Shown piece by piece: positions 36,511-58,489 of a DNA stretch of 64,000 nucleotides. How positions within the stretch are numbered: the first letter of the stretch is position 1; each line of letters starts with the position of its first letter. The stretch covers positions 1,178,001-1,242,000 of the forward strand of contig JANFAH010000019.1 of NCBI GenBank assembly GCA_024663395.1, given 5' to 3'. The notes beneath the pieces were generated by a model, which had not been told where the DNA came from, searched no databases, and saw only the letters and a list, made by a program, of their open reading frames with translations. The stretch comes from Pisolithus tinctorius. Its lineage: Eukaryota; Basidiomycota; Agaricomycetes; Boletales; Pisolithaceae. Both the position numbers and the translations under genes were made by a program.

Positions 36511-39347
36511 ATCGCAGTCGAACCTGACTCTCCTACTCGCAGCACCGTTACCCCTGGTCCTCGTCTCCAACCAGACAAGAGGTATTCTGCAGCTGAACTA
36601 CGCGACTTCGGAGTGAATACCTACCGACAAGTTTGGCAAGAGTTCTATGAGTGGGAGCCTGGATACGCGTCCCATGTGCTGACGGATGTAAAAAATCAAC
36701 CGCTCTTTCCGGTGAGGTCGCGGACTGCTCAGATGGCGAGGAGCTTAGTCAAGAAAGTCGCCGATGGCGTCCCCTCGCCTGCCTTACTTAGCGAAAGTCA
36801 TTCAGAGGCCTGCTCGGTTTCCTTCACTAAACACACCGCTTATGGTGCGACAACTGCCAAGGTGATGATTCCCACTGTTGTCCTAGATGCGACCCAATTT
36901 CCACCCCATGCTCCGTACGAATGTTGTGCGCCGGCATCCAGAAGTATTTTGGTCAGCGAGGGGGACCGTGACACTGCAAAGTTTTTACCATACGCGGATG
37001 AACCATCCTTTCCAGCGAAAACACACCTGGCAAAATTTGCACGCCTTGAGTGGGAGGAGAACTTTGATCCTGATTGTAAGATTCTCCATGTTTCTTCAGC
37101 TTGATGCTTGACTGCATACCCAATAGTGGAGATGATTCAACTAGAAACTGCATGGAGGCTTCATGCAGTTGACAAGCTTTCTCTCAGTGACCTCAACAGG
37201 ATGAATATTGTCAAAGGCATCCACACTTCCCATAATTCAGGGCTTCTATGGGATAGTTGCCAAAGGTACTTTTGTTGTTGCACTTTAGGGAGATTAAGCT
37301 GTTTTATGTAAAATATAATTTGTCAAGGGACTTTCTGCACTGGCCAGGGGCTTCTCAGATCAATGCAAAAGATGGTCTACCAACAAGCCAGGCACCTCAG
37401 CAAGATGACTTGCATGGAAGGCTCACATCAATGCTCAGGATTTTTTGTCCTATACTAAATTGCCTTTCCCCCATGTGCCATACACATGGTAGGTGGCATC
37501 TCTGATTACTAATTAGTCCATGCTTCTAGACTTTGCATTTAGCCTATCCCTTCTCTTCATATCTCCCTTCAAAAAAGCCTCAGATTACTGGAGAAAGCAT
37601 GAGACTCTCTGAAGGAAACCCATGTGGAGAAAATTGCTTCAGATTGGTGCCTGACATTGAGAGATATGCAGTAAGACTTTACCATGCCCAATATTCTTTA
37701 ACTCTGCACATTCCCTCAGGAATCTCTTCCACCACCAAGTGAAGTTGATCAAATGTCTTTAGCTGACAATCTTTCAGTCATACTTGGGATTGCCCCAGAT
37801 CTGTTTCCCTGTCAATTAGCAACTACTTTGCTTCAAGTCATGCAAGGAGGTGTGTCATACTATCTAGGTGCTAGCTTCACTCACATTACCACTCACCTTA
37901 CCTAGACTTTTGTCAAGCGATTACAACTTTTCCCAGATAACTCCATCCTACCACTTGATAGAGAATCTTCTGCTGCACTCTCCACAGATGGTGAGAGTGG
38001 TGCCTGAAGGAGGAGTAATGCAGGGGAGGAAGAAGAAAAAGAGTAGGCCTTTGGTGCAGTATTGTATCTAGTTCTTCCAATGGAAGTATTACACTATCTA
38101 ACATTTTAGCAGTCAATGACCATTCACATGAAGATTTTCCCTGTGTCAGTTTTCATTTTGTTTCCATTGCTCCATTTTCTGAGGAGTGGAGTACCCAGGC
38201 TTGATCCCTGTGCACACCCAGGCACATGTACAACTGCTGCCTGCAAGTGTTATTCCCACAAAATGCATTGCAACCCAGCTTGTAGGTGTGGTTTGTCATG
38301 TAAGTAACTCAAGCACCATATAAACTGAAATGGATATTTCATTCACACCTATATTCTCTTAGGTGTCAGACAATGGCCACCTTGTACATGCCAAAAGTGT
38401 GAAGACCACACCTGCTCTTGTGCAATGGGGAAAAGGGAGTGTATCCCAGGGCTTTGTGTAAGATGTGATGCTGGGTAAGCTTGGAAGTTCCCCATTCCAG
38501 ACAAGTTCACATCTTAAAATTTATAACAGAGGTACAAATATATAAATTCATTTCTCAGTCCTTTTCCAACTGGTTCTTATTTTTTACAGGTAGCAAGAAG
38601 GATCCATGTGCAAACACTAGAATGCAGAGACATGACACTAAAGTAAGCAAAATATTTGGATGCCACACTTGCACCTATCATAACATGAATGATGATACCT
38701 CATAGCTTCTTGAGGTCAAAACTGGATCATATGGGCTTGGTGCATTTGCAGCAGAAGGCATGGCTGTTGATGCCTTTCTTGGCAGTAAGTCGCAATGTGG
38801 TACATGGTTTACCTCTCTGGTAGTAACTGCTAATGTAGCATATGTTGGCCACATTTTGTCCAACAATGCTGCTGAGAGTACAAGGTAAGTTGATCTGTCT
38901 ATTAAGGGCCTTGGATAACTTTCCATAACTGGTTTTAGTGAAATTTTGGCACACAATGGTCGCAATTATCTATTTGAGTTCTCTGCTGATGCAGAAATCT
39001 TTGATGCAGCTCAGGTTGGGAACCTGACAAGGTACTTGAACCATCAAGGCAATGGAATGGACAATGTTGATGCAAGTTGTGAGTGAGATTGTTGCAGATG
39101 CAGACTGATTATTGATGCTTAAATGCAGCTATGCTTGTCAATGGGGAGCATCAGATTGGATTTTTTACAAGTAAGTTTTTTTGATACCCAGCAACATGGA
39201 TCATTTTGAGAAGAATACAATAGAAAGGAGTGTGAATGCTGGGGAAGAGATGTTCTTGGATTATGGTCAGAACTACTGGATCCATCATGGTGGTAAAAAG
39301 GGCATGAGAGATGAAGATACTGCAGAGGATGGGACATCAGTTCAATG
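36511..39347 (+). CDS. Enhancer-of-zeste-like histone methyltransferase (CXC-SET)
   Basis: At least 11 canonical introns join into one E(z)/KMT6-like protein, for example 37,076-37,126, 37,266-37,327, 38,300-38,362, 38,785-38,838, 38,885-38,938 and 39,079-39,128. Upstream blocks: KFLPYADEPSF, DPDLEMIQLETAWRLH, GLLWDSCQR. The CXC pre-SET has at least 15 cysteines (CAHPGTCTTAACKCYSHKMHC, RCGLSC, CSCAMGKREC, LCVRC). SET: SYGLGAFAAEGM, TYVGHILSNNAAESTR, RNYLFEFSADAEIFDAA, RYLNHQ (for NHS), MLVNGEHQIGFF, GEEMFLDYG with the catalytic Tyr. E(z) enzymes methylate H3K27 in PRC2. The start codon is unclear, a join near 37,980-38,190 is uncertain, and the junction at 39,171 does not splice cleanly, so late damage is possible. 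From 37,076 on the gene is almost CpG-free. Confidence 0.78.
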
Positions 39348-39589
39348 ACTAGCAGGCCTTTATATGCATATGGCTTGGCTGGAGTTCACTCTGTAGGTTG
39401 GCAAGTCAATGTAGACAACATTGCTTGACATACTGTATCAATCAAGAAAGCATTCAATTGACCAATGTATGCATTTTTTTTTCCAGTAATAGAACATTTG
39501 CATCTACATTGAGTCAAAGAGATCAGAGCCCTTTCCTGACTCAGCATCAAGACTAGTCAACAATACCACCCAGCACAGGGGACATGAAC
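39348..39589. other. 3' flank of E(z)-like gene
   Basis: CpG-free. On the minus strand its right end still encodes a few codons of the NACHT gene (FMSPVLGGIVD at about 39,545-39,585) after a frame change. Confidence 0.5.
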
Positions 39590-41250
39590 TCAGAGAACGA
39601 GAACAACATCATAGTGATCCTGCTTGTTTGGAAATTGTTTGCAGATGTAGTTCAAGGCCACCATAGGCAGAGGTTCAAGTGTCATCACGACCTCGTGCAT
39701 TACGGAGCAGTATCGTTCAAGGGCTTTCCTAGATTTTGGGATGGTGCTTTCCAGGATCGCAGAGTAAGTTGCATCCAGAAGTTTCCCTCCTCTCATCCTC
39801 TCATCATAGCGCTCCTTCACAGTTGTTCCAGCTCTATTAGGCTTGATGTAATCGCAGGCCAGACGGGCCCATTCAAATAGACAGTCCGCCTTGCGGACAA
39901 TCTTCTGCACTTCAGTGTCTCCGATGCTCGGAAGGTCGCCAAGTTGCTTAAAGACGTATAGCCGGATATCGCGCTCCATCCACTCCCTCGAAATATCATC
40001 CAAGGACGTTGCCTTCATATGTGGAATGGCACTCAACGCACATTCGATATCAGGCAACGGGTGGGATGTCACGAAGACACGGAAGTTATTGGAGAGATTG
40101 CAGGCCTGAGATGCAAGCACCGACAGGATGTCTCCGGGATCCTTCCGGACTTCATCCAGCACGTCGACCACACTTCCAATCATCGTACTCGACACCAGAC
40201 GCAGTCTTGAGCGAATGGTCCTTTGCAGGCACATCAGCCAAAGCCCGCCGGAATGATGGGTCCCGGCCCGCCTGACCACGCGCGATGGTGGTAAATATCT
40301 TTTCCTCCCGACGCTCGGCCTGCCTATCACGAGCAAAGCAACTGACAATCTCCGGAAGGATTTCTGTTCTAGTGCCGTCGAGACACTTCTTTGTTTTGTT
40401 GAGACCCGCGCCCCCCGTATAAGCCATGCCGTCGAGGTTGAGGCCTTGAGGTACGCAACGTGTACCGATCTGAGTGTCCCGAACCGCACGGTCTCGGTAT
40501 TGTTGCATCAGCGTATCTAACGTCTTGGTGTGGCTATCGATGGCGGCCTGCTTCTCAGAGATTATGTTCTTTCCCAATTTCGTCCCTAAGAGTGTGTCAA
40601 ATTAGATTTCATAGTGAAAAGATGAAATCGACCTACAGAAGCTCTTGACCTCTGAGTAATCCTTGATGAACTGCATAGCATCACTTATGGCCGGCGCAAT
40701 CTTCCCTCAAGTTTCTGAGTCGTGTCCTCTTCCAAAGAAACCAGACTCCTCTATCACTATCGAAGAGGCCAAAAGCCTTGTTGACAAGGTCCGTTTGACT
40801 GATGAGAACCTAACGAGGATAAGGTAAGAAACGAGGAAAATATACACGACTAGGAAACGTACCTGTGAAACCGCGGTCAAGACCCCCAGCGCAATCTGGG
40901 CGTAGGGGTGGACCAGCATACCCATGTCAGAGCTTGTGAGCGACAGGAATGTAAATTGCATACCTTTGCAACAGTGCTAACAATGGAATTAAAGGTTTTC
41001 AGAGGCTTTAGATATGTATCACTGATATTATGAATGCTTGTGACTACAGCGCCGGCCTTCTCGACACCATCGATGGCTGTCTGACCAATTCGTGGAATAG
41101 GCTTCATCTGATCCAGTGCCTGTTGAGCGGCATTGATTCCACTACCTGCCGATGCTAGGTCTACGATGCATGTGGCGGGCGTGGCTTCTTCCGCTCTGCC
41201 GGCTGTCCTCTGTTCCTGTCCATAGGAATCGTAGTATATCGTGATAACGG
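39590..41250 (-). pseudogene. Broken NACHT-type NTPase (NLR-like)
   Basis: The N-terminal exons read AGSGINAAQQALDQMK, LKPLKTFNSIVSTVAK and VHPYAQIALGVLTAVSQ, the usual lead-in of basidiomycete NACHT proteins. Next come YTGGAGLNKTKKCLDGTRTE and CFARDRQAERREEKIFTTIA. The segment between them that should hold the Walker A P-loop (GxxGxGKS) is missing. A Walker B-like VVDVLDEVRKD follows, then FRVFVTSHPLPDIECALSA, DIRLYVFKQLGDLPSIGD and FEWARLACDYIKPNRAGTT. Frames change near 40,200. The coding ends near 39,545, so any repeat domain is absent. The protein cannot bind ATP normally. Confidence 0.8.
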
Positions 41251-42009
41251 GACGTGCGTACGCTCTGGGTCGGAATTGGCTGGGATTGACTACGTTGCTC
41301 CTTCACTCCTTCACCTGTACTTGTGCCAGCTGTCCCCGCCGTGACAGGACCTGTTCAATGACTTTTATTTGATCGACGAAACAAGTACTCCATCCGAACG
41401 AATACCTTCTGGAAACGTTTCCAGAGGGTCCAGTGTTTAAGGAGACGTGCAGAGGAAAACCCTGAGACGGTCCTTGTGACTGTTTTTCTGATTGATTAAC
41501 TCGTTTCACTTCGCATGTCACTTGGAAGAATTGAAGCGTACCGGAGGTTACCAGCAGGTGTAGAACGGGATGGCCTCTCACGCCCAGACAGACGACCTCT
41601 CCTTGCCATCGTGCAACGGGTTTACTTGGTGCATTTTGGGTTACATAAGTTAGACGGGTTAGACTTTAGAGGTTTGATGTTAGTAACTTCGCCCTCATCA
41701 GGGTCGTGTTGTGGACACGTCGCAGGAACCGTCATGCCATTGATGTTTCGACGACGTCCTCATCGGATGCGGAGTCTATCCTCGTACCCCAACGCTGTAG
41801 CTGAGACCACAAACAGTCTCACAATGTCAGTGGATCTGGGGAGGCCATTCGCCATTGCGACATCTAAAACCCCTGGGACTCTATGTACTGCACAAGTTTC
41901 ACCCGCTATGAGTAAACTCAGTACTGTATCTTAACCTCGTAAAAAAACTACAGAGTGACAGCGTGATACACGTGAATCGTGAGGATACAACAAACAAACT
42001 TCCTTTCAT
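41251..42009. other. Intergenic, no gene recognised
   Basis: Short frames on both strands (such as 41,515-41,934 plus) show no family signature. The region separates the NACHT pseudogene from the 3' end of the eEF1B-gamma gene. Confidence 0.5.
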
Positions 42010-43675
42010 TTACTTGAACTGCAACGAGAAAGCAAGATGTCAAAGATCGGTTCCTCACATTAAAAAAAAAACGCCAACTCACATTCTTCCCATCCTGCCA
42101 CTTCTTCCCATCAATCTCCAAGTCCCAGGCTAAAGCACCCTCGAAGAAAGCTTTGTCCTCGGCGTTCTCGAGGTCGAGTTTCCTGTAGATGTAGCTCTCG
42201 TAGTCGGGTGCTACCTCGACGACGGGTTTAACATCCTGACCACGCAGGATCAGAGCACCGGCGATGATCGAGTTGTTGGCCTCTCCAAGGACGCCTATGG
42301 ATCCGAAAAGATATTTACGTGAAGCCTCCAGACGGTTGAAGAAACCGCCGATTTGGTTTGAGGACATGAAGACGAGGGTCAATTCCTCGTTATATTTGAA
42401 GTCAACACGGTAGACTGAGAAACCTTCTCTGTCGAAGCTACGATGGAGTAGGCGTCAAGTCGATGGAGACGACTACGTTTGGGTAAACTTACTTCTCGTA
42501 GAACCACTCAAGAGAGCCACCGGGTCCGCGAGTGTCCTTGTTAGAGTAAGCGCGTTTCCAGTCCTCGAGATTGAAGGTCGATTTTGGTAGGAGATCGAGA
42601 GGGTTTTTGGCTTTGGGCTCCTCAGGGACAAGGCTCTCCTCTTCCTCCTCATCTTCTTCTGCTTTCTTGGGCTTCTCCTTCTTTGGAGCCTGTGCAGGAG
42701 CAGGCTGCTTAGGTTCCTTTTCTTTCTTCTCCTTTGCGGGTGGAGTGTACTGCGCAGCCTTCTCGACGAACGTGGGTTGGCCAAAGACCCCCTTGAGTTT
42801 TGGTTGATTGATGATGAGGTCGAGGTGGCGGAGGATATTTGGGTACTTGGCACGCAGCGGGGCATCGAGGGTGTATGAGACGGCAAGGAAAATGACAGAG
42901 GCAACGGTGATATCAGCAAGGGTGAGGCGCTCGCCAACAAGGTAGGTACGAGTGAGGAGGATCGTCTCGAGGGAGTTAAATCCTCGGATCTGACGCTCAG
43001 TCATTGTCGTATGGATCTGCTTGGTGTTAATCGCCGCAAAAAAGAAGTAAATGGATGGTTGCCAGACTTACAGCCTTGTTATAGGGCATATATCCGTTTA
43101 ACATCAGATAGATGAACTCGGTGCACAAGTGTATTTCCGACTCCGCGAAGTGCACATATTGGTCGACGAGAGCGGCGTCCTCGAGGGTGCCACCGAGAAG
43201 GCCCGAATTAGGTGGAATGGAGGCAACTATGGGTTCTCCGTAAGTATCGCTCGCTTTCACAGGTGTGCAACGAAAAGAGGGATGATGGCGGTCAGAAATA
43301 CCACTATCTGTCGACATCAAATTCCGACAGGGATAACTGTTGAAGATATTTTCTTCCTTCTACCCAATAACCTGACAAGCATCGTGTGTGATACGTACTA
43401 TACCGAGCGATGGCGGCGCCTTCGGTCAGGTTAAGACCGTTGGCGCACTCAAGAGCAGGGATCTTTCCATGAGGGAACTTGGCCAGGAAATCTGGCTTTT
43501 TGTTGTCTTCGTAGTGCTTGTACTCTGGTTCCTCAAACTCCACGCCAGCGGCCGCAGCAGTGGCCTTGATCTGTTACGCGAATATTAGATTTGAAAACAG
43601 AAAATGCGAGAAAACACGTACGATGGTGGTCTGGTTCATGCTGGGGACAGAGTAGAGCTTTCCAATGGGCGCCAT
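42010..43675 (-). CDS. Translation elongation factor eEF1B gamma subunit
   Basis: Six exons: 43,622-43,675, 43,399-43,570, 43,072-43,226, 42,493-43,016, 42,083-42,437 and 42,010-42,018. They give 422 residues, the usual family length. It starts MAPIGKLYSVPSMNQTT. The GST-like N domain covers about 1-80 and the GST C domain about 90-210 (GERLTLADITVASVIFLAV). A Lys/Glu/Pro-rich linker precedes the conserved EF1G C-terminal domain from about 264 (NPLDLLPKSTFNLEDWKRAY, SNQIGGFFNRLEASRKYLFG, WDLEIDGKKWQDGKNFK). The protein scaffolds the guanine-exchange complex that reloads eEF1A. The last exon codes only FK and the stop. It shares a 194-bp divergent promoter with ORC2. Confidence 0.95.
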
Positions 43676-43869
43676 TTTCTGAGCTCACGAATGGGAAGAT
43701 GGAAGAGAAAAGACAAGAAGCGATCGATATCTGATTTTTTTTTTCTTGCACGGAAACACTCCAAGTCACATCGTATTGGCGGGTCAGATAATCGACCCTA
43801 ATCAGGGCTTAGGGCAGGCGTTATCGATCTGATAACCCCAATTTTTATTTATTTATTTTGCTCACCGCC
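43676..43869. promoter_or_regulatory. Divergent promoter of eEF1B-gamma and ORC2
   Basis: Only 194 bp separate the two start codons, so both promoters must overlap. It contains a poly-T tract (about 43,734-43,744), the motif CTTGCACGGAAACACTC at 43,745-43,761 and TCAGATAATCG at 43,784-43,794, the pair also found at 32,553-32,593. ATCGATCTGATAAC is a partial inverted match further on. Confidence 0.6.
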
Positions 43870-45150
43870 ATGGACAGCGACGACGGGTCAGACGGCGAGC
43901 AGAGACAGCAGTGGGATGAGTCCGAGTTGGGTGCACCCGGGGTGGCTGCGTCGACGCCGTCGTTTGAGGCGTATTTTTTGCAGGCGTCGTCGCGGTCTGC
44001 GACGTCCTCCAACGTGTTCTCGTCACGCGTCCTGCCCCTTAGCGCAGACGAGTACGCGGCGGCCATCGCAGCGTACAAGGCACGCCCACAGAGCCAGATG
44101 GTGCAGACGCGATGGACCGGCCCATGGGACGAGGCCACCGTGTTTCGTCGGTACGCACGGGAGCTCGCTGAGGGCTTCAACCTGCTCTTCTACGGCTTCG
44201 GTTCCAAGAGGGCCATCCTAAACAAGTTTGCGACGGAATGCCTTGCCAAGAAAGGCCACGTCGTCGTCGTGAACGGTTTCCAACCAAATATCACGCTCAA
44301 GGATATCCTAGCCTCCATCGAGCGCGTGCCCGGTGTGCTGTCCCACTCTTCGTCGCTCCCTCTTTCAGCGGAACAACGTATATACGATTTTTTCGCTGAA
44401 TCCTCGCAGGACGAACCACGTGCCCATCTCTACCTCGTCGTGCACAACATTGACAGCCCTGCCGTGCGCTCCCAGAAAATCAAAAACTTTCTCTCGCTCC
44501 TTGCACTCAACCCCAACGTACATCTGGTAGCCTCCATCGATAGGCTGAATGCTCCCCTGCTTTGGTCGGCGTCAGATGTCAGCTCTCGGAAGTCTCCCGC
44601 GCATAATCCCGGAGATATGAAGAGCAGTGTGCTGAGACGCGGTTACGCATGGCTGTGGCACGACCTCACCACTTTGTCACCTTACGACTTCGAACTCACG
44701 TATGCAGATCAATCCTCAATCTCCGGTGCTGCTGCACTGAGTACTGGCACTCGGACTGCACGTCAAGGCATCACAGCAGGAGGCACCGCATCTGGTGGTC
44801 CACTCTCTGAGACTGCAGTAGCGCACGTCCTTGCAGCCGTTACTGCCAAAGCAAAAAAACTCTTCGCCTTCCTTGCCGCGAAACAGTTGGAGAACATCGA
44901 GGCTGCACCCGCAGAAAATGCTACCGACCTCCAACAGTACGGTCTCACATACGACACCCTTTTCTCTGCTGCCCGAGCCGAATTCATCGCAACTAATGAT
45001 ACCACTCTGAGATCACTCCTTGGAGAATTCATGGATCACGGTTTAATCCTTTCAGTAAATCAGGGCGGACCAGGCGGTGGTGAAACACTCTGGATCCCCT
45101 TGCGCAAAGAACGCATTGCAAAAATTCTTCAATCCGTAAACGACGAATAA
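43870..45150 (+). CDS. ORC2: Origin recognition complex subunit 2
   Basis: An intron-free frame of 426 codons from ATG 43,870 (MDSDDGSDGEQRQQW). Conserved ORC2 blocks: FNLLFYGFGSKRAILNKFA (about 105-125), HVVVVNGFQPNITLKDIL, LYLVVHNIDSPAVRSQK, VHLVASIDRLNAPLLW, WLWHDLTTLSPYDFEL and, in the winged-helix end, DTTLRSLLGEFMDHGLI with LWIPLRKE. ORC2 is an AAA-like core subunit of the six-protein complex that marks replication origins in the nucleus. It is shorter than animal ORC2 because the disordered N-terminus is reduced. An upstream in-frame TTG was not used as start. Confidence 0.95.
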   Translation: MDSDDGSDGEQRQQWDESELGAPGVAASTPSFEAYFLQASSRSATSSNVFSSRVLPLSADEYAAAIAAYKARPQSQMVQTRWTGPWDEATVFRRYARELAEGFNLLFYGFGSKRAILNKFATECLAKKGHVVVVNGFQPNITLKDILASIERVPGVLSHSSSLPLSAEQRIYDFFAESSQDEPRAHLYLVVHNIDSPAVRSQKIKNFLSLLALNPNVHLVASIDRLNAPLLWSASDVSSRKSPAHNPGDMKSSVLRRGYAWLWHDLTTLSPYDFELTYADQSSISGAAALSTGTRTARQGITAGGTASGGPLSETAVAHVLAAVTAKAKKLFAFLAAKQLENIEAAPAENATDLQQYGLTYDTLFSAARAEFIATNDTTLRSLLGEFMDHGLILSVNQGGPGGGETLWIPLRKERIAKILQSVNDE

Positions 45151-45202
45151 GAAACATGATCCCTTCTGAGATCTAATGGATTTTGTAGCGAATATTACGA
45201 AC

Positions 45203-46849
45203 TTAATACACGTATGGAATAATACGATACGGAACCAGCTTCTTGTATTTCTCCCAGTCTTTGCCGTACCTAATATGTACATTTGTGAGCATGAATTCAA
45301 CCGAGAGAAGGTGTGGACTCACTTTTTCTCGCACATCTCGTCATCACGGCGCTGTCTGTGAATAAGAAGCACTGCGAAATAGATGACATAGAAGTACGTG
45401 ATAGGTGTTTCGAAGCCAGTCGGCAGAGACCAGGCAACTGCCATGACGAGGTCGCCACTAGGTCATCCAGATCAGCACTACATGATGATAACAATTCAAC
45501 CTGCCACCTACAAATAATTAGGATGCCGGGAACGCCCCCACCATCCCGAAGTAAGCAATTTCGATCCACGTGCGGTCGTGAAATATTGAAGGTCTGTGGC
45601 TTCCATCAGAAAAAAATCCAATGAAACATGCAGCACGTCTACGACTCACTCTTGGGGTTACGTCCGTTCCTAAAATCATTCTTTTCCCCATTTGCATCCC
45701 GGAAGATATAGTAACCCAATGCATTTACCGCGAAGATACTCAAAGCAACGAGGGGTCCGAATTCTACAGGGTTAAAGGCAAGATACCGCGCTTGTAGGGA
45801 GTACACGAACGGGACCCATAGCAGGTCGCCAACGGCCAGCATGAATCCGAAACCATCAGTTGTAATATCCATAGTAGTGAAGACAGCCGGCTGCATGATT
45901 GTGGATCAGGTGCCGCCACGAAAAACATGCCCATGTGGATTACCTCGTTGTACAATCCATCTGCAACATAGAACGATTGAAAAGCGAGGACCAACCACAT
46001 CGAGTAAGTCACGTTCTGTAGACCTCCACGACGCACTGCCTGCTCGCAGAGCATGCTGATATTGACAAGAACCCAAAGTATGAGACCGGGTCTGAGTTCG
46101 TTGAAGGATTTGATATCGAATAGCCCAATAGACGGGTTCAGTTCGCGACCAATGTAGAACTTGGTTGCGTACACACGTGAGAATCGAACTTGGACCGAAA
46201 ACGATAGTAGGGACTTACATCATAAATCGGGTTTCCAGAGTTGCCACCTAAAGCGAGAAGGGCACCTTTGCGGAACGATGCGGCGTACACTGCGAGCGCT
46301 TGCACGACCGACATCATCAATGCAGCGGTCATGAAACCGACCCACTTGTGATAAATGAATGTGAAGGACTCAGGGCCGAACCGCATGATGTAACCAGTCG
46401 TGATACCCAGGGTGAGCAAGAAAGTCGAAAAGGCTGCGCCGACCATGCCAACATCAGAACACCAGTTATTTAGGCAAAACTGGGTACGCACCGTTGATTT
46501 TATACTGTTTCTTTTCTCCAGTGCGTAATTGAACACCCTCAATCCAATCACCCGGGAGGACGGCCCAAGCCACGACACAGTACATGTACCAGGCAAAGTA
46601 CATGAGGGATGCTTGTGTGTCCCATAAGCTTACCCACCATGCTTTATCCGTTACCGCGGCTTGGATGCGTGCAGGAATTATGTCCAGAGACGGAGGGCAC
46701 CCGCCGGAAGTTGCTGAACAGCCAAAGTAGAGGGCGTATGCCGTCGCGGGGACGCCAAGAATGATCAAGAACGCTCCCGGTGGCCCCAGAAATTCGTACG
46801 TCGTGGTTCGTGGGTTTAGGGTGTCATCTTGTCGTGGTTTCGACGACAT
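45203..46849 (-). CDS. C-14 sterol reductase (ERG24 family)
   Basis: The start is ATG 46,849 ([13 protein letters not shown]). Several short introns follow (the first begins at 46,491). Multipass membrane protein of the ER. Family motifs: [16 protein letters not shown] near the N-terminus, [63 protein letters not shown], then [19 protein letters not shown] at the C-terminus. GRELNP and DITTDGFGF separate ERG24 from the related ERG4. The enzyme reduces the delta-14 double bond in ergosterol synthesis with NADPH. The gene is intact and convergent with ORC2, with only 52 bp between the stops. Confidence 0.92.
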
Positions 46850-47031
46850 TTCGCGACGGATGAGTGGTGAATAATGAAAAAGCCAACTCGCCAGAGCTAA
46901 TAATTGGTTGGTGTGAAGTAACAAAGTGGTGCCACCGGGCCCAAACAACCGCCACTCGTTAGTATCTACATTCCCCGCCTCCTCGTGGTACTCAGAGGCA
47001 GAGGTATTAGTCTTTGCCTATCTACTCGTAC

Positions 47032-48261
47032 TCAATTCACTACGAAAGCTTCTTTCACCTTCGCTACATCCCGACACGTCAGACTATAACGCATCGCGCG
47101 AGTGAGCGTTCCTCCGTGACGAACAACCTCGTGTATGTTTTCGTCCCCGATATTCTGCCAGTTGGCGATGAGAACCTCCTCCCCCGTAGCATGTCTGAGC
47201 CACCCACGCCCAACGAACGTGTCTGACAACGTCTCATCGATACCATGTAAGTGAGACGTGTAGAGATCGTCGGTCGTGATAATAGCGCTCCTCGGTTCCA
47301 AAAGGACGGACAAGACAGGCTTCGCGTCGATAGATCTTCCATTACCTTTGCCATCCTGCTGAGAGATGGTAGAATCCATCATTACCTCACTTTCCGGGTT
47401 GTATCTAAAGTAGTGGAAGATGGTGTGGGATCCCAAAGAAATTGTCGCCACAACGGGGTAATATGATGGTCCGTCTTCGTGAGGCTAGACCAAAGCAGCT
47501 GGTTCAATGCCATCACATCAATATCATTGGTGTGAGACAGAAGCTCACCATGATTCCTTGGCCAGGGAGATACTGCAATGAATAGTGTTAAAGGACCTTG
47601 ACCTTGATCGGGGTGTCCGATTCACTTACTTCATTGAGAATGACGTGGTTGGGTTCTCGGTGTGGGGAACGCTCAAACGCCCTCGTTCCCCTCAGCCGGC
47701 TTAAAATGTCGGGGCTATGCAGTAGACAGATAAGGATTTCGACTTCAGTCACGACGATCGTGACTGAGCTCACAAGGACGTCAAGAAAGCAGGCATCTGT
47801 TCTTTTAGCAGGGTGTTCTGTAATACTTGTCCACCTGATTGAGATAGGAGCTCACCACATCAGAAAGAATCATGCTAACGGCGTCGGGAAAAGTGTCTCA
47901 CCCCACAACTGCAATCTGGCACGATTACAGCATAGCAGTGCGTAAGTGGCTAGAAATTTAACGGTGATGTTACCAGGAGAGTCTTCCTACGGCACAGGTG
48001 CCAGGAAGTACAGACTCCGGCTCATACGCGTGTGGTATGTACGCACCTACGATTGCACAAAGTCTTCCACTTGTGTTTTGGAGACTCGCCGATCTGATCA
48101 CTCGCACAAATGCTCTATGATCAGGATAGCAGCACATCGCGTTGGGGGGCACTTGCCTTGCGTAGTAGGTGAACTTCCTCCTCTCTAGATATGAACTCTG
48201 GGATATAGTAGGCGCCCACGATATCGTGTTGGAAGGCGTATGGACTTATTTCGTCCGGCAT
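47032..48261 (-). CDS. AlkB homolog 6-like Fe(II)/2-oxoglutarate dioxygenase
   Basis: The start is ATG 48,261 (MPDEISPYAFQHDIVGAYY). Seven or more short exons join in frame, giving FISREEEVHLLRK, IGESPKHKWKTLCNRR, LQLWGE, MPAFLTSFPDILSRLRGT, SPHREPNHVILNEY, LPGQGIM, then PHEDGPSYYPVVATISLGSH. Iron ligands are H-x-D in PHEDG and the distal H in YTSHLHGI. RYSLTCRD carries the 2-oxoglutarate-binding arginine. The first intron begins GCAAGT, a GC-AG intron. Substrate is unknown. ALKBH6 is linked to nucleic-acid repair in other eukaryotes. Confidence 0.9.
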
Positions 48262-50713
48262 CGTCCTCAGACTTGAATTAGAATATCAGAACAGACTAAG
48301 GACATCGACGTTGATGGTGATGGATGCAGTCCCACGCGTGGTAGTCGCTTCCAGGCCTCCGAAGCACTTGTAAGTGCATATGAGCGGAAGTCCAACTTTA
48401 ACTGCATGCATCGTTGAAACGCTGAAGGACAAAGGAATGCTAGACTACATCTATTCACGCTGGAGCCGCCGGTGTTCGGACTTCTCGAACTGGTTAGTCG
48501 GTCTGCGTCTTGGGGACACCATGAAGTTATGACATCAGTTGAAGTCACAGGACACTGAGACCGTCGTTAATCTCGTCCGCTTGCATCCTCCAACTAACCC
48601 TCATTGTAAGTTCCATTGACTTTTCCCAATCGGATGTTTTCAGGGAGTCCCCAGATTGATTGGCCTTTCCACGACCTTCGTAGCTGGAAAGTGTCGCCCG
48701 TCTCTAAGGGAGTACTCTTCTAATCCCTCGGGAACTTGTCTTGAACCCGGGTGAGTACAACATACACTGCGACCCTGGCAGGGTCAGAATCAGGGCTCCG
48801 ATTCCGTGATAAGCTAATTATCTCCGGCGACACAGAATATACATACATACCGAAGGTGCCAGGCACTCTTATCGGCTTGCATTGTCGTATGTATTGAGTC
48901 AACTGGCTATACCATTCCTCCCTCGTCTGCTATATACCGAGTCCTCATTTCGAGCTCGCACGACGCACGTTGCAACATTTCTATTGCAGACTTATGTGGT
49001 TCAGGCCCTTCCCTGAATGGGACATTTCAAAAATTCCATCTGCCGTACGCTTTCCGAGACCACCGGGGGGTTGGACACACATGTCACAAACATGCTGATC
49101 TGAGTAAAGAAATTCGTGTCCCAAGGATGTAAAGCTTATAATTGGAGCGGAACACGTGCAAGATCTTCCGACAGCCTTCGTACCGCAGGCGGCCGTCCCT
49201 CCGTCCCTGCGGATAGCTAAGGCATACCGAGCACATTCAGATATGATAGGATGGCTCTGGACAACTATCGCGGGGCCTTCCATTTGGGAAATTGGGGTCA
49301 TGTCTACTCAGGCCCCTGATTGCTTGCTTGTGATCTGAGTGGGAATCTCCCATCACTTCACGGCGCATCGCACTGCCGCTGCAGCTTAGCCAGGTCAACC
49401 TTCTAGTCTCATGACTTCTCTAAAAACTGATTCAGCCATCATGGGTAATTACGTCAGAAAGAAAACCCCCCAGTTATCAATAGTGTAAGTTGATTTCCGC
49501 TTGTCTGGACCTGTGTTATTTGAGGTGACTCCCTAAGTACCGGTACCCGCGAACGCGCGTTTCACAGCGATCTAGTCTTGATCGGTAGTCAGTTACCTAA
49601 AGTGAGATGTAGTTTTCCCCCCTTCATATACGTAGTATGCATTTTTGCATTTACAGACAACGATCTAGTGCCTGTGGAGGAGTGCGCCTCGAACTCAAAG
49701 GGTCCCCCTTTCCTGGACAATGGCGCATAATCATTTGTCTCATTCGGAGATCCAGGGTAAGGGTGTAGGGTAGCCGAGGAGGGTTAGAATATTATATCAC
49801 GAGGAGATGACCAGATCAGAACCGACAATGGAGAACAAAGCAGGTGCGAACAAAGGCCTGACTTCAATTTTGTAGCACCGCTTATTACGGGAAAGCTTAG
49901 GAAACCCGGACCCCGCTGGCAAGAATGGTCGGGGCGCGATACATTCATTATTGGCAACCTCTAGTCTTTAGCCTGCGAACTTAATCTAGTCAGTGATTCA
50001 ATGAACGCTGAAAGGCTATATTGATACCGCGGATGAGAGTGGGATAGCGAACAGACCCGAGCTAAAAAGGAGATAATCATCCAGAAGTCGTATTAACTGA
50101 ACCGTTTGGTAAGGCAATCCAGATTGACGCTCGTTGCTTGTGCCCCTTCGGTATCCACGGCCAACGATCAGCCCCGTCTGCGTGGAACGAATCGGCCGCC
50201 ATCACATGGTATGCACCAAGCATTGTGGAGTTCAGGAAGAAAATTTTCTTCGCATCCGAGCAAATGGTAGGGCGCTCAGGGAATATCGTCACATGGTGAG
50301 GCCACCGAAGGCGATGCGAATAAGGTATTCATGGGACTTGCAAGGACGCTTGGGCATAAGTACTCGTGTTGGTTTTTAATGCGCGAAACGAACAAGGCTA
50401 TCTACTTATCCAGTCATCTTTCCTGCCAGAGCTTTCCCCCTAACAGCTATGCCATTGTCACCACAAACTCTGTTCAAAAAGCCCCGCGAGGGTTATTAGA
50501 TGGGAATATGTACGGAGTCCCCGGGGAAGAATTTTCCGTCGGGCACTGAGACCGTGTACGTAACGAGAAGCGAGCAATAATATTACTTATCAGAGAGGGC
50601 GAAAGGCTGATAGAAGGGGGGTGACGATGTAATATTGATGAGAAACGATGACGCTAACGGCAAGTGCGCGGGATCGAAAAAAGCAACTATTTTTGTTGTT
50701 CTGAACTGTAAAT
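48262..50713. other. Gene-poor region, nothing recognised
   Basis: CpG-normal unique sequence with only short frames. A minus frame at 50,077-50,292 (STMLGAYHVMAADS) looks coding-like without a match. No repeats with clear ends were seen. Confidence 0.5.
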
Positions 50714-50924
50714 TTATTCAGCATCCCGAGGTCGAACGAAAGAGGATGACCGTGCGTACACTGGTACATAGACACATGGGTAACCTCGCCGATTGCAATT
50801 ACCGCAACTTGGACGTCCTCCGTCACATTTTAACTTTCGGCCTGGAGAGGCATAAGAGATGTGTGCAGGTGGCGTAAACAAGGGAAGCACCTCGACAGAA
50901 TTGGCATGCCATGGGAGTCCGTCG
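50714..50924 (-). pseudogene. Zn2Cys6 (Gal4-type) DNA-binding domain fragment, intron-split
   Basis: Two exons joined by a 49-nt intron (50,842-50,890, GTGCTT...TCCAG) give the perfect pattern C-x2-C-x6-C-x6-C-x2-C-x6-C: MACQFCRGRKLKCD, then RPSCGNCNRRGYPCVY. This is the binuclear zinc cluster of fungal transcription factors. Exon 1 may start at the ATG of MACQ or upstream (RVPRRTP). A stop follows soon after VRPRDAE. No regulatory domain was found downstream, so this is either a gene fragment or a gene whose further exons I cannot join. Confidence 0.65.
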
Positions 50925-53900
50925 GGGGACTCTCGGTGCGTCATGATCAATGTATGTCCTATACTGGTCATAAGACTGATTCGAGCCTCAGTTTCAATAC
51001 GAGCTCTTAAAAAACTTTGAAGCATACTTGGGAAGACATGGATAAAGTTATGGGTATGATGGAACAGCTGGCGAATAGGAAGGGCGTGAATAACAGAAAG
51101 CCAATATAATGAAGGGGCGATGGCTCAGCAAGAAAAAGCTGGGTCCAATGCGACCAATTTATGGGTGCCCACCCTATGAGGGAAAGCGCGCCAAATGAAC
51201 CATGAGCCCCAATCAAGGTTTGGCAAATTCGCCATTCTCAGATATAGATCATCCAAGCAAAGGAAAAAGTAGTAGATCTCCGCTATGTCGGCTGCGAGTT
51301 GTTATTTTAAAACGCCACCATGTATTGGTCGGATTAGAAGATATCAAGGGAACGACCTTCTTCTGCACCGTCTCTTGGAAGTGCCACGCGCCGGCTTTCA
51401 GCGAGGAAAGTTTAAGTCCAGGTTTGTGATACATTGACCCTAGTCGAGTCAAGGATGCAACTTTAGTGCCAATCGGTTTCATAAACAACTTTGCCTCGGA
51501 CTATGTGCGGAAATTGGACATCTTAGTCCGTGTTCTGCCGGTGCCGAACTTGACAGCGTCTTCGGAAGACTAGAATGTACCGTGAGGGGAATATGGATCC
51601 CGTTCTCGTTTTCATAAAGCTAGGCGGTTTGTAAACGGGTATGTATGTACATACGGAATTTATTAGGGCGTGCCCAGCCCTCTGTAACATTAGGGTCGGG
51701 CGTAGGGTCGCACTCTACACGGGCATAGCGCCGCGGCAGTTTTCGATGGGCCACGCGGCCATTCCAGCCTCACGTTGTGACCTGCGTGGCTCTAAATCAA
51801 ATCGAACTAGATGCGCCGACTAGAACTGGATGTACGTACCCATTCAGTTTCTGGACTTCTCTAATCGTGAGCCACTTATGAGTACCGTGGTCTGCGCCAA
51901 GGCAAGGGAAAAGGCTAGGTAAACCCGGGCCGTAGGCGCGGACGCGAGGAGAAACCCATAAACCTTAGGGAAGATGAGTAGGTGGTTTATCGACGGACAC
52001 TCGTAACACACCCAAGCTGAGTTAAGGCTGTCACATGATGCATGAGGGAAGTACTTACATGCGCAAAACCGACCACAGCTTGGTCCGGCCATAGCAGCTG
52101 AAAGTGACCTAGTGCCTTGAAGGTTTCAATCTGAAAGTTTGGACACGTGTTCGGAGTCGACCGTTTCGTTACCTACTACTTTTGGAGGTGAACTTGAAAG
52201 CAGTGTTTCCAGCCTGTACATGTGTCCCTGCCGCTGATTGGCACAGTCGGATCACCTACAGGAAGACGTTCCCGTCCTCTCTTGATGTGATGGGCCAGCC
52301 CTTACTTCTGACGTACCGGGATGCCACAGGTTCTTCTGAGAATACATGACTTGGTGCCGAAGCTCAGCGACCCCAAGAGCGGTATCTGATGGCCAGAGCG
52401 CTACGAGCTGGCCATTGTGACCCTGGAAAGAAAGCACTACAATGTCCTGATGCATTCACATTGTGCCGGCAGCCGGAGTGCGCCCGATTACAAACTGGGT
52501 CGAAGCCAGAGGACCGCGGCGTATCAGGTAGCTCCTTCTCTGGATGCCGCGCTCGAAGAACGTTCACACTTGGAATCCCTGCGTCCATACATGAAACTAC
52601 TGGATTTTTCTGTCGGACGCCTCCATCTCCTGACATAGTGTCATAATTTGTGACTCGTTCCTTTCAACTCTGATCCATGACATATTGAAGTTGCAGTCAG
52701 CAGGTGGTAAGTTCCTACTTCCCGGAGCCAGCTGAGGGCATGATCTGCAAGAAAAAGTCTCAGATGTTGGCGGCTACATCACTGATGTCTGGCTTGTTCC
52801 CAATGTAGATATTCGCTTTCTCTCTACGTGGTGGCGTCTACATGCTACGGAAGGAACCGAGCTCCTAAGGACGACGTACGATGTAAACTTGGGAGACGGC
52901 CGACTGCTCGTACACTGCCACCAACCGGGCCAGAAGTCAGATCAATGGCCACTGTGACCCTGGCTCCTGCGCAAGGCAGGCCAGCTTTCTTCCAGAAAGG
53001 GAACATCTCGAACATTACTGGTTGCCTCCACTTGGCTCATAGCTGTCCTGGCGAATGGTCGAGTGCTTGCGGCGCCGCTATTAAACACCTAAAAGATGAA
53101 TTAAAAACTTACTTCGCAGGCGGTTTTCAACCGAAGCCACAGATCCTGCGGCCAACGATACAGAGTTGGTAAATGACTCCGCGCCCGTTATGATCTGCGT
53201 TGGTTTGCATCGCTTCCGGAGGACTCCCAAATGTCTTATCAGACGTCTCAACAATTTTCCGCATGCCGTACTGTCGTTTCCGGAGCGACTTTGCAAGATA
53301 TCGTGCAGTAAGCATCATGCCTCTTATCTGTCTGCCATTCTAAACACATCCCTTTACACTTGCGCCCTCTCGCTCATCAATCGGACGCTCGCACCCCTCT
53401 CGGCCGGATCCCAGACAACCTAGAAGCAGCAGCGTAATACCGGACCATCTTGGTTCAATTTACGGTAAGATGTGCCTAGAGAAGAGTGCTACATGATCTC
53501 ATACGCAGGAACTGGGGTCTCGTATCTGAATGCGTCTTTGCCCACGCTTTGGGTGCTCGGTCCGTAGCGTCAAGATCTCTGTTACACTCGTGCCTAGATG
53601 TGGTACAAACACCTGTCTTCTTTCATCTCTCTTTGTACCGTGAGTTTGTTCAATTCCGAGGTACTTCGTTCGCGTTTTGTGGAGCGAGCATGTTTCACAG
53701 AGGTTACATAATGTCTAATACCAAATAGCGCTCGTTGTGGACGGATACTGGTATCTCAGGAACCCCACGAGACTTTTTTTCGAAGTTAATGACCGATACC
53801 AAGGGCAGTCTATTTACTCTTCTATCTGGGACCAGCTGTCAGGTACTAGATCTTTCGAGAGCCCACCCCGATTACATTTCCGATCGACGTGGGATATGTG

Positions 53901-55857
53901 GTCAGCAGTACGTCAGCGACCATCTCCATGTATCGTTCGATAAGTCTAGTCAGATAGATTTGGTCCGCATTATTACACGGAAGTTTCGCCGTTCTGTGCA
54001 CGGTGCACATTCAATGATACGCTTCAAGGATTGGTGTACAGGCTTCCGGATCCCTTACGAAGTACATACTTGGCGCCCTTGCAGTCCGACGGAACAACGG
54101 AATGGATTGACTACCCCCTCATCTAGACACCGGATAATATCCTTTTGTGTTATTCACTAAGTATGTACCAGTCACCTTTTTTCAATGCAGACGTCGCATG
54201 ATTTCTACACTTCGTTAATCGACATCTTACACTGCTTTCTCTGAAATTTTCAATTATTGGTAATATGTACGTCGGAAAGACTTGTCTCTACACTGACAAG
54301 TAGTGGACTCTCTTTAACGTCACTGTAAACCTCCATATGAGTCCCCTTAGCAAGTAAGGGACACATGACTTATGGCAGGAGTAGTAATAGCTGACCCATA
54401 TCACGCACGCCTCTGTGTTATTGCGTGCTCAGTGGTCACAATAACCAAGAGAATAAGGTGAGCCAATGCCTACATTGGACGCGATGTGTTGATGGGCGAA
54501 GGGTGAAATTTGAAACTTGGTTTATGAGTGAGTATTACTCCCCGCCTTACCTGACTGAGACACTTGGTTCCCCCAGATCGTTTGTCATACCCTACCTAAC
54601 AGGACACCGGGTGATCACGCTACTCCGGCGCTGTAGTCTTTGATGTAGGCGCCGAAACGAGATCATTGTATGCATTATCTACACCTTTACTTCCAAGCTG
54701 TTTTCCACAATAGGCTGCTCCTTCGCTATATCTTTCTCGTCATTCACATGTACTGCCAGTTCCTTACCCGCTCTACGAATGAAAATATCTTCAATGGCGT
54801 CCTGCAGGCACAACAAGCATCAGAGACGGAGGTCGGCGCCCATCTCTACCGTCATTTTCCCCCGAATATGGCTATCGAAGGACATGCGACCCACCGAATG
54901 TCAAAAACGATCCTACAACTGAACCTAAGTACCCAGTTATCCGCGTCCGATGGCCACTTAGTGATCCATGCCTTCCGGCGTTTCCCCGTCGACCATAAGG
55001 TGAAACCGATGGTGCAAAAAGGGTGCTCTTGGCCCACGTTTTGTTTTCTTACTGGAGGTTGACTGCAGGCAGTTGACATCAACGTCATATGTGGAACCCG
55101 CGGATGAAAATGCTTTCTCAAGGTATTCACGATCATACACTCACAATCTAGCAGCAGATGAGGAGAAAAGCACAGAAAATGAATATATCAAGTGTTTATC
55201 ACATAGCTCGAGAGCCGGTATAAAAGTTACTCTGGCCATGTAGGAAGATCGTCCTCTTGTCTGGGCTTGCATTGATATCGCATGTGTCTGCGAGTCGAAT
55301 GCAAACGATGAAATGCCCAGACAGATAAGGCGAAACATTAGCAAAGGTATCGCATGCAATAGGTGATATAAGTGACTTACGTGTGGCGAGAACGAAGTCA
55401 GCTATGATGAATGGGCCTGGTCGACATTAGAAGTGTGGTATACCTGTCAGATAAACCTACCCTTACCGTTCCCGCATTGTATGGCCGTCCGTTGATGAAG
55501 TAGGTATTGGCGATCGCTTGTTGTCCGCTCAGCACCAATCACACTTGAAGATCTAGCCCCGTACGCGAGCGGGCGTGATAGGAGGGCTAAAAGTACCCAG
55601 TGTTCAGACATAAAAGAAAGGAGGGTGGGGATTTAGGGATTTGTGGATTTGGGATATACATAAAGCTGAATCAGCATCAAGTTGCTTGCTTCTGTCTCCA
55701 ATGAATAGATGTCGAGGCAGGGATCAAAGTCAGTGACGTTGTCCAAAGCCCTAGTGCCCGGATGCGCACAGGGTAGGGGTTCCGTCTCTTTCAAGCTGTA
55801 CCACCTTGCTCGCTGAAGGTATTCATGGCATGTTAGAGGGGACTAAGGTCACTCCCA
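50925..55857. other. Gene-poor region with coding-like scraps
   Basis: No full gene could be built. Coding-like frames occur near 52,760-52,960 plus (DVWLVPNVDIRFLSTWWRL), 54,958-55,140 minus (YDREYLEKAFSSAGSTYDVD) and 55,480-55,611 minus (starting MSEHWVLLALL, a possible signal peptide). None matches a family I know. They could be exons of unrecognised genes. Confidence 0.4.
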
Positions 55858-56160
55858 ATGAGCAATACGGTTGACGAGGGACCAGCAACAGCATGTCGGG
55901 AGAATCAGATACGGCCCGGAGATGCTTCTCAGAGCTTGCAAAGTACTTACACAAAACCTGATTTCAGGACATTAGCAGGGGTGGCGCTGATCGCCTTTTC
56001 GAGTGTTATACAGTTCTATCACGGCTCGTCTCACGGAGCTCACACGCTGGAAGCTGCTAATCACATTATCGCTCCAGTAGTCCGCGCCACCGAGCACCTT
56101 CATACTCCAAGGATCCCAGGGTTCTGCAGGATGGCTAGCACCGGAAAGACGAAGCAGTAA
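55858..56160 (+). CDS. Hypothetical small protein
   Basis: An open frame of 100 codons from ATG 55,858 (MSNTVDEGPATACREN) with one hydrophobic segment (LAGVALIAFSSVIQFYHG). No family recognised. It could be spurious, since the frame is short and no intron or conserved motif supports it. Confidence 0.25.
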   Translation: MSNTVDEGPATACRENQIRPGDASQSLQSTYTKPDFRTLAGVALIAFSSVIQFYHGSSHGAHTLEAANHIIAPVVRATEHLHTPRIPGFCRMASTGKTKQ

Positions 56161-56403
56161 TGTTAAGCAGGCATATGAAGTAGGAAGGGGCGCGTAAATG
56201 TGTTTTAGCCTTGAGTTGCTTGCTCCAACCCCATGTCACGTGTTATTCAAGCCCTTCGTTTGCTCGTCGCCAGACGCATAGCCGCTCACCCTTTGAAGAA
56301 TCATCTGTAGTCTTGGACCCCTTGGCAGTACGTGTGATAACCTACGCCTATGATTGTTGATCTAGCACTAACTGTGTGAGCTTATGGTTTGCCTCTTAGG
56401 AAG

Positions 56404-58489
56404 ATGCGGTTGTTGGATGTAAGAGCGGTCCTCCATCGCGAAGAGAATATTCAGCAAGCTGGATCCAAGACCAAGGTTTTGGAGGAACTAGATGACAAGA
56501 CTACGGAATATGCGATACTGTCGCACCGCTGGGGAAAAGAGGTTGATTACGATGAGATGACTGGACTCATGAAGATGGACGAACAAGACAGGAACGAGGT
56601 CAGGCAACGCGACGGTTACCGGAAGATCATCAAGAGTTGCGAACAGTCCATGACGGACGGCTACACATGGTTGTGGATCGACACATGTTGCATTGACAAA
56701 CGAAGCAGTGTGGCACTCTCGGAGGCAATTGGGACTATGCATCAATGGTACCGCAGCTCGCAGCTGTGCTATGTATACCTCAACGATGTCGACGAATTAG
56801 CCTTTCCTACTGAACCGGACTTCAACAGGTTTGGGAGATCCAACAGTTGGCCGGAGTGGTTCTCGCGAGGCTGGACACTCCAGGAACTCATCGCTCCTAC
56901 TGAAGTCGAATTCTTTAACAAGGACTGGGTGTCTATCAGCACTAAACGGGACCTGACATACACGATATCGAGGATTACGGGAATTTCATCCTCTATTTTG
57001 TGGTGGGGTCTGCCACGGTCAGGACCCGAACCCAACGTCGCTCAAATTCTGTCTTGGGCTGCTGACCGCAAAACAACGCGAGTGGAGGACCGAGCGTATT
57101 CACTGTTGGGGTTATTTGACGTGAATATGCCGATGCTGTATGGGGAAGGCTCGAAAGCATTTCGGCGGTTGCAGTTCGAAATCATCCGGGCATCCAGCAA
57201 TCATACTATATTTGCATGGAATCCAAAGGGATGCCTTGTGAGTGGCGGCGGTGTCCTTGCAGATGACCCGAGCTGCTTTCGGGGCTGTCATGACATGAAA
57301 GAACTGGGACGCGAAGAGTTCGTCGATGAACTAGGGGCATATTTGCTCCAGAATTTGATTGACGTGGATGCAGACCCGCGGAATATTCGATCGTTGCTTT
57401 ACAGTGTGGACCCTCCACCTTCCAGATTTAATATCACCGATCTGGGCATCCAGGTGTCGTTGCCTGTCCTGTCCGATGGCGACGACCATTGTTTCAAGGC
57501 TATACTGCCATGTCTTGACAGTTATGGAAACCTGGTCACCATTGACCTCTGCTACAATCGACTTTGCTTTTCCAGGCGGCGGCCCTCTACATCGATTATG
57601 AACACAATCTCATTTTGCAAGTCACCTTGTCTTGATTGCTTTCGAGACGGTGAGAAGATCTGTCACACTCTCAGGCTCAATGATAAGTGTGCCTTGTGGC
57701 ATGGTTTCGCCCGTTGTGGTGCTTTCCCGTACAACGTCGCAGGGGACGCATTCACATTGTCACTAGGAAACACACTCGTCGTGCTAGTCTATGCCAATGA
57801 CAACACCAAATCTCGCTTTGCAGTTGGATGTGGATGTTGCTTTGGTCGGGAATGGACACGTGTTGTTTGTGACGAATGCCCTGTAGACCAAGAGGCCTGG
57901 TCATCGTACCTTGACTTTGCTAAGCAGGTATATGATTTCCTATGGAGTGCACCTTTCCACAACTCCCTTTAATTCTCCGATGACATCGTTATTGAGGCCG
58001 CTCACCTTCCCCGATCCATTTGGGATGCAAGGATTGTTCGCGGCAACAACTATGGTGGCTACACCGACGTGATGATCAACATCGAGCAATGCCCCGGTTG
58101 TTGTACTGGGTCACGTCAATATACAGATATATTTGTCGGTACTTTCTCCCATGTATGTGTTCGGATCTAACCATCTAAACCATCATAGCTGCCTTTGCTT
58201 GAATTGGAATTGGATGGGGAATCTACACAACTATATGAGTGGGCCGATGAAGAGATTGCAGTAAGTCGTAATGTATCTCTTTGGCCTATGGCAAGTCTCA
58301 CACAAACAGCTGGGCGACTATGGCAACTACGGCGACTCCAGATTGAGCCTTTTCAAACACCATGGAAACATATTCGAAGATATACAAGAACTTGGTATCA
58401 ATCCCAGGGATTTAGTTTATCACCCAGTCATCTCTCACGTATCCAGCCGGACCTTACGTGCACACCAAACCGTGAACAGTCCAGTTTGA
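56404..58489 (+). CDS. HET-domain protein
   Basis: The start is ATG 56,404 (MRLLDVRAVLHREENI); an upstream exon remains possible. HET motifs: YAILSHRWGKEVDYDEM, GYTWLWIDTCCIDK, EAIGTMHQWYRSSQLCYVYL, WFSRGWTLQELIAPTEVEF and the trailing RVEDRAYSLLGLFDVNMPM. Three introns fit: 57,928-57,996, 58,153-58,188 and 58,261-58,309, giving 643 residues. The first intron is 69 nt, in phase, and contains a TAA that would otherwise end the protein. HET proteins take part in allorecognition and programmed cell death in fungi. The C-terminal part (residues about 280-643) has no recognised domain. Confidence 0.88.

Follow-up and report, generated by a model that had tools for sequence, protein, structure and literature searches.

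A CpG-depleted island over the 3′ body of an E(z)-like gene of Pisolithus tinctorius and recurrent mid-gene CpG loss in NACHT-WD40 genes

The locus

This report concerns a 64,000-nucleotide stretch of DNA from Pisolithus tinctorius (contig JANFAH010000019.1, here C19, positions 1178001–1242000; referred to below as the window), and in particular an E(z)-like gene within it that has lost almost all CpG dinucleotides downstream of its first exon. The CpG-depleted island spans 37,043–39,597 and retains 3 CpG in 2,555 bp, with TpG and CpA in excess and a GC content of 0.42. Its left edge lies inside the E(z)-like gene; on the right it adjoins the remnant of a gene of the NACHT-WD40 family, other members of which lose their CpG abruptly in mid-gene. 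Genome-wide searches covered the 92.5-Mb assembly of 221 contigs, and about 0.3 Mb of its sequence was read.

The E(z)-like gene is read on the forward strand. Its exon 1 side (36,511–37,075) is CpG-normal and lies in a frame free of stops from 36,511 to 37,098, where 36,511 is the limit of the frame and not a called start. A GT-AG reading of the sequence gives a putative intron 1 of 51 nt at 37,076–37,126. From exon 2 onward the gene occupies 37,127–39,348, ending in an in-frame TGA (39,346–39,348), and both its exons and its introns are cleared of CpG. Two exons (38,206–38,472) carry cysteine-rich segments of the CXC type; these are seen via tblastn with the canonical E(z) frames of this genome and via an EZH2 alignment, with no Pfam match to a CXC domain. 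The SET domain exons (38,709–39,279) match PF00856 (E=4.3e-9) and the EZH2 chain 4mi5 (E=5.7e-23). The Pfam match to SET was obtained with joined exon peptides; a Pfam search of the unspliced island, with stops as X, returns no families because the exons are short. The gene thus has the sequence features of an E(z)-like histone methyltransferase, namely a SET domain and CXC-type cysteines, and its frame is largely intact. The named protein relatives are all from Boletales, namely Pisolithus (76%), Astraeus (67%), Melanogaster (59%), Gyrodon (58%) and Paxillus (55%), and all five are recorded as proteins of 120–314 amino acids.

A CpG-free stretch (39,349–39,555) extends from the stop codon of the E(z)-like gene to the end of NACHT homology. 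Beyond it, on the reverse strand and convergent with the E(z)-like gene, lies a truncated and frame-broken remnant of the NACHT-WD40 family (39,556–40,936), recognised by its homology to 28 paralogs. It has no WD40 half, and is CpG-normal save for its last ~100–300 bp. The name NACHT comes from the initial annotation, which was made from the sequence letters and their open reading frames, and from translations of paralogs (four loci and two extended loci); in Pfam, the 299-residue frame of the remnant has only a sub-cutoff match to NPHP3_N (E=0.023). Rather than a nucleotide-binding domain followed by WD40 repeats, the interval holds an incomplete family member.

Extent and signature of the island

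The CpG positions given in the initial annotation are exact: 37,042 to the left of the island, then 37,918, 38,791 and 38,961 within it, and 39,598 to its right. The 'about a dozen' CpG that it reported for 36,841–37,080 number 12. The CpG observed/expected ratio (o/e) of the island is 0.027, with o/e values of 1.42 for TpG and 1.57 for CpA. Where the window is CpG-normal, o/e is 0.93, a rate at which ~104 CpG would be expected instead of 3; the Poisson probability of three or fewer is ~1e-40. A two-rate change-point model places the left edge at 37,045–37,075 and the right edge at 39,655–39,685. Coding and other DNA are depleted alike: 1,284 bp of counted exon retain 2 CpG, and the remaining 1,271 bp retain 1.

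The nature of the loss can be read from the other dinucleotides. Relative to the ratios of CpG-normal DNA, the island differs by −101.7 for CpG, +46.7 for TpG and +68.4 for CpA (+115.1 for TpG and CpA together). Since the deficit is balanced by the excess of both products, CpG was lost by transition, on both strands. The match is good, not exact; GpC (+20.5) and CpT (+22.1) are raised as well. This balance is what deamination of 5-methylcytosine (5mC) leaves behind, and the footprint of methylation and deamination proposed in the initial annotation is thereby supported, as far as sequence can speak to it. Repeat-induced point mutation (RIP) of the ascomycete kind would appear as a CpA-to-TpA bias; TpA/ApT is 0.64 in the island and 0.69–0.73 in the flanks, and as it is not raised, RIP of the CpA type does not describe the island. 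Nor is the target duplicated, the island being single-copy apart from its counterpart on contig C8 (see below).

Codon usage follows the same pattern. In the exon segments of the island 2/20 Arg codons are CGN and 0/95 codons are NCG, as against 4/7 and 15/50 in exon 1. Both remaining CGN codons coincide with surviving CpG, at 37,918–37,919 (CGA) and 38,961–38,962 (CGC); the third survivor, at 38,791–38,792, falls outside the counted exon segments. At the two Arg codons the Pisolithus relative P0002 has His and Cys, respectively, the residues to which deamination of CGN codons leads. This fits a process that was also at work in the Pisolithus lineage, a reading that draws on two sites.

In 500-bp bins, the island is the sole CpG-poor stretch at 30–64 kb of the window, and no other appears in the 20 kb of contig that follow. 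A second CpG-poor region occupies 1–29.5 kb (o/e 0.10) and shares the signature of the island. It consists of DNA resembling long terminal repeat (LTR) retrotransposons: four of the eight frames scanned match domains of such elements (gag, RNase H, integrase zinc-binding and chromo). Several frames between 1 and 29,500 are open over 268–457 codons. At the border of this region with CpG-normal DNA lies the 3′ end of a fungal protein kinase gene (PF17667; 29,632–30,648, reverse strand), which has further matching places elsewhere in the genome.

Edges of the island

Canonical E(z) of this genome (C1:3626298) is CpG-normal over the 5.5 kb read (o/e 0.91). The gene in the window is collinear with it in tblastn from exon 1 (36,628–37,083; 32% identity to canonical exon 1) via CXC to SET. 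This collinearity places the left CpG edge inside one gene, at the start of the putative intron 1 or up to 33 bp before it. The exon-intron junction named in the initial annotation agrees with this: the change-point at 37,045–37,075 meets the border at 37,075/37,076 predicted by the GT-AG reading. Judged by gene structure, the left edge does not mark an insertion. Searches of the whole genome at the DNA and protein level find no other copy of the island besides that on C8, the DNA search being one that skips very common words. A transposon as the source of the island was considered and ruled out; there are no prominent terminal direct or inverted repeats, and there is no further genomic copy.

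The right edge is of a different kind. Matches to the 28 paralogs start at 39,555–39,563 (at 39,556 in 17 of them) and run rightward; none extends leftward. Since family homology stops at 39,556, a rearrangement junction must lie there. The initial annotation had set the right edge within the last codons of a NACHT gene; this is an effect of truncation, as the paralogs continue into WD40 repeats. Its more general statement, that CpG loss does not follow an insertion boundary, holds for the left edge, where a single collinear gene is crossed and no donor copy is found, and is not supported as it stands for the right edge, which adjoins the junction.

CpG loss seems, weakly, to continue ~100–130 bp beyond this junction. 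Between 39,556 and 39,690 the window has 2 CpG (paralog median 6), and in the following 160 bp it has 5 (paralog median 10); only 1 of 28 paralogs matches it in lowness of this near/far ratio. Among sites that are CpG in at least half of the paralogs, 3/6 are lost up to 39,720 and 11/31 further right, seven of the latter by single transitions. Two paralogs (L004 and L014) are also CpG-poor in that stretch in the absence of a junction, and the window forms a long separate branch in the tree.

A second copy of the locus

A second assembled copy of the locus is found on C8. It is collinear with the window rightward from 33.8 kb, with 98% identity over 33 kb, and collinearity is absent left of ~32.6 kb. 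Such a copy is the expected outcome if the assembly holds both nuclei of a dikaryon. The island is present in both copies, which differ within it by one substitution and eight 1-bp indels. The 1-bp differences at 37,824 and 38,003 break exons of the window copy, and one at 39,241 breaks C8. Eight 1-bp indels beside a single substitution (37,824–39,241) may reflect assembly error, which they resemble more than decay, or relaxed constraint.

Over the wider locus, substitutions between the copies amount to 0.04–0.28% at 37–50 kb (37,043–50,000) and to 2.8–3.8% at 50,001–58,000. The kinase frame recurs on C8 at 623–624 kb (82% identical to that of the window). Between the kinase and the start of collinearity the copies differ by tens of kilobases (C8:624–682.6 kb; window ~30.6–32.6 kb), and the extra DNA on C8 is mostly CpG-poor and partly repeated. 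Surrounded by CpG-poor DNA, a 6.5-kb CpG-normal block (C8:663.7–670.2 kb; L032, L033) has ends that match C19 repeats at about 86–91% identity; it is perhaps a young insertion.

CpG cliffs in the NACHT-WD40 family

The DNA search with the island scored 40 places, of which 38, besides the window and C8, match only the right end of the query. Twenty-eight of these 38 (L003–L030) were cut and read, the other ten being left unread. Some of the 28 are near-identical pairs in the tree and probably allelic, so the independent number is lower. The family layout is NACHT followed by near-identical WD40 repeats.

In all 28 loci the NACHT side is CpG-normal, after which the gene is CpG-free. Taking the cliff as the last CpG preceding at least 400 CpG-free bases, there are 3,068 CpG in 54,393 bp upstream of it and 6 in 33,429 bp downstream, a contrast that this definition favours. 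Codon counts use fixed, independent intervals in the best frame (366 codons of NACHT and 265–271 codons of WD40 per locus) and give the same picture: Arg is encoded by CGN in 612/861 codons in NACHT versus 1/440 in WD40, and NCG codons number 541/2,508 versus 3/1,687. From the cliff to the first motif-recognised repeat, the median distance is 543 bp (range −44 to 835). The best WD40 frame is free of stops in 26 of the 28 loci and has five stops apiece in the remaining two; for NACHT, the best frame is stop-free in 23. Where reading was extended beyond the repeats, L007+L059 has two CpG over ~3 kb, with CpG returning ~750 bp past the repeats to give a bounded island close in size to that of the window; L003+L060 stays nearly CpG-free (3 CpG) for ~2 kb, up to the end of the stretch read.

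An intragenic CpG cliff therefore recurs in this genome. The idea of a targeted process acting on a defined segment, put forward in the initial annotation for the island alone, gains strength from this recurrence, on the evidence of base composition. Shared ancestry is part of the reason why the cliff is common to the family; the E(z)-like gene adds a second case that is unrelated to it. The half-gene clearing of the NACHT-WD40 family is the most interesting part of these results, and lies outside the coordinates first annotated.

Origin of the CpG loss

The island is probably the product of old, targeted CG methylation and deamination of part of a protein-coding gene. According to this reading, the 3′ body of the single-copy E(z)-like gene would have been CG-methylated over long evolutionary time, with exon 1 and upstream DNA unmethylated, and methylated CpG would have been deaminated to TpG or CpA until nearly none remained. 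Selection at the protein level would have shifted Arg codons to AGA and AGG and left the exons for the most part readable. In NACHT-WD40 genes, the WD40-coding half would have been cleared likewise from mid-gene, typically from ~0.5 kb ahead of the repeats. Long-term CG methylation, with deamination while purifying selection acted, is consistent with the signature, with frames that are mostly open and with the virtual lack of CGN codons for Arg.

The agent would be 5mC that a maintenance methyltransferase copied within chromatin that was silent or rich in repeats, and it would have acted in the germ line for a very long time; promoter-side chromatin would have shielded exon 1. In the NACHT-WD40 genes the mark would most obviously have been aimed at the repeats, leaking by about half a kilobase. 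As for the E(z)-like gene, the mark would either have been placed on the 3′ body itself or have leaked from a WD40 array since lost by the convergent NACHT remnant. In Cryptococcus, DNMT5 copies the mark for very long times without renewed targeting; a maintenance enzyme of such persistence could explain why a single-copy segment was affected. The host does encode cytosine methyltransferases: PF00145 domains are found above the cut-off at three places in the genome.

Several observations weigh against this explanation. The E(z)-like gene is non-repetitive, and no methylation-recruiting feature was identified in it; the 24 kb adjoining the island on the right are CpG-normal. The DNMT1-RFD model finds no match in the genome, its controls being likewise silent. 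Comparison of the two copies, as a mutation-spectrum test of ongoing deamination, is uninformative with only one substitution in the island. The agreement with P0002 comprises two sites only, at one of which (38,961) four relatives have Arg and two have Leu. Some of the 1-bp indels break the frame in one copy or the other, and the E(z)-like gene may be decaying. Finally, the junction at 39,556 falls within ~130 bp of the right change-point.

Alternative explanations

A possible, if less probable, origin of the mark is leak from a lost neighbour: a methylated WD40 array would have stood tail-to-tail with the E(z)-like gene, the mark would have spread into the gene, and the array would then have been deleted at 39,556. 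Such a leak amounts to a form of the preferred reading in which the trigger is named as well. It would account for three observations: the truncation of the remnant falls precisely on the WD40 side, in convergent orientation to the E(z)-like gene; this side is CpG-free in all 28 paralogs; and the remnant itself, lacking the array, is CpG-normal. Clearing does outrun the repeats in the family, by the median of 543 bp upstream, and downstream by ~750 bp at one locus and at least 2 kb at another. The leak would, however, have to reach ~2.5 kb, whereas the upstream leak measured is at most 835 bp, and the extended downstream clearing at L003+L060 may belong to a different element. Neither DNA search nor paralog alignment finds a trace of WD40 in the island.

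An active, RIP-like mutator, changing CpG premeiotically in place of slow deamination of a maintained mark, is improbable. Precedent comes from CpG-biased hypermutation of genes and repeats in the basidiomycete Rhizoctonia solani AG8, according to the available portion of PMC4014442, and the WD40 repeats of Podospora NWD genes are discussed as RIP targets in the accessible text of PMC1805685. Against this, the E(z)-like island is single-copy, whereas the multi-copy NACHT halves are spared; CpA-to-TpA change of the ascomycete type is absent; and cleared coding frames that are mostly open are a better fit to slow change under selection than to bursts of mutation.

More improbable still is import of the segment from a CpG-poor source by recombination or conversion, with the edges of the island as its breakpoints. 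The closeness of the end of NACHT homology to the right change-point and the sharpness of the left edge would suit such an event. However, exon 1 and the cleared exons belong together in a single collinear E(z) gene, CpG is low, weakly, also just right of the junction, and the only donor or recipient copy found, by a DNA search that skips very common words, is the CpG-normal canonical gene, whose exon 1 is just 32% identical.

Selection against CpG in coding sequence or mRNA, or codon bias, acting without methylation, would explain the near-exclusive use of AGA and AGG for Arg in cleared coding DNA, but is disfavoured and very improbable, as DNA outside the counted exons is cleared too and CGN codons are in free use in exon 1 of canonical E(z) and in the NACHT halves.

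Implications

It is possible, and put forward tentatively from base composition, that this genome has or had a part-gene CG methylation system that marks 3′ parts of genes with set intragenic borders. If so, the marked parts would be the WD40 halves of NLR-like NACHT-WD40 genes and one single-copy E(z) paralog, and the mark would have persisted long enough for coding sequence to be rewritten free of CpG with the protein preserved. Since the mark could no longer be copied in a cleared segment, such segments would be the fossil trace of an epigenetic memory that erases itself. A system of this kind could also influence how the recognition half of immune-like genes mutates.

Sharp part-gene clearing with mostly open frames would mean heritable, very long-term methylation, with an intragenic border, of genes in at least one Boletales-like fungus. 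At the NACHT-WD40 cliffs CpG declines over a few hundred bases, so methylation is directly scorable there. These cliffs could show how a mid-gene border is set and whether such a border directs the mutation of a fungal recognition domain.

Comparison with known systems

Among E(z)/EZH2 histone methyltransferases, the gene in the window would be placed by its CXC-type cysteines, its SET domain and its collinearity with the canonical E(z) of the genome. It differs in being a divergent second gene.

In Basidiomycota, CG methylation is concentrated in regions rich in transposable elements, as stated in the part of PMC13297926 available. Methylated transposons of this kind resemble the present case in CpG-specific loss with gain of TpG and CpA, which is also seen in the LTR-retrotransposon-like DNA of the window. 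In contrast, clearing here affects a chromatin gene present in single copy, together with 3′ parts of genes that are immune-like, with an intragenic border and frames that are mostly open.

Gene-body methylation of animals and plants offers another parallel, and the E(z)-like gene conforms to it: the 5′ part is spared, the body is CpG-depleted and coding is kept. It was largely lost in fungi, with exceptions, as far as the same excerpt of PMC13297926 goes; in a rust dikaryon, CpG gene-body methylation is higher on lower-expressed alleles, as given in the obtainable part of PMC12129025. Gene-body methylation would be common among transcribed genes, whereas no other cleared gene body is present at 30–64 kb of the window or in the next 20 kb, and the border in the NACHT-WD40 genes keeps to the repeats, not to a constant distance from the start of the gene.

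At the level of titles and the opening lines of abstracts, no report was found among the papers listed of CpG-cleared NACHT-WD40 genes or of part-gene CpG clearing in mushrooms. A likeness within basidiomycetes is offered by R. solani AG8, where CpG-to-TpG change affects genes and repeats. As the portion of PMC4014442 at hand describes it, the changes there are spread over both, while here they are near-complete in sharp blocks and absent beside them. The NWD genes of Podospora share with the present family the layout of NACHT and near-identical WD40 repeats, together with a discussion of repeat-directed mutation. The available text of PMC1805685 has RIP at CpA striking two pseudogenes in Podospora and largely sparing the WD40 repeats; here, in contrast, it is the WD40 side that is CpG-free and the NACHT side that is spared.

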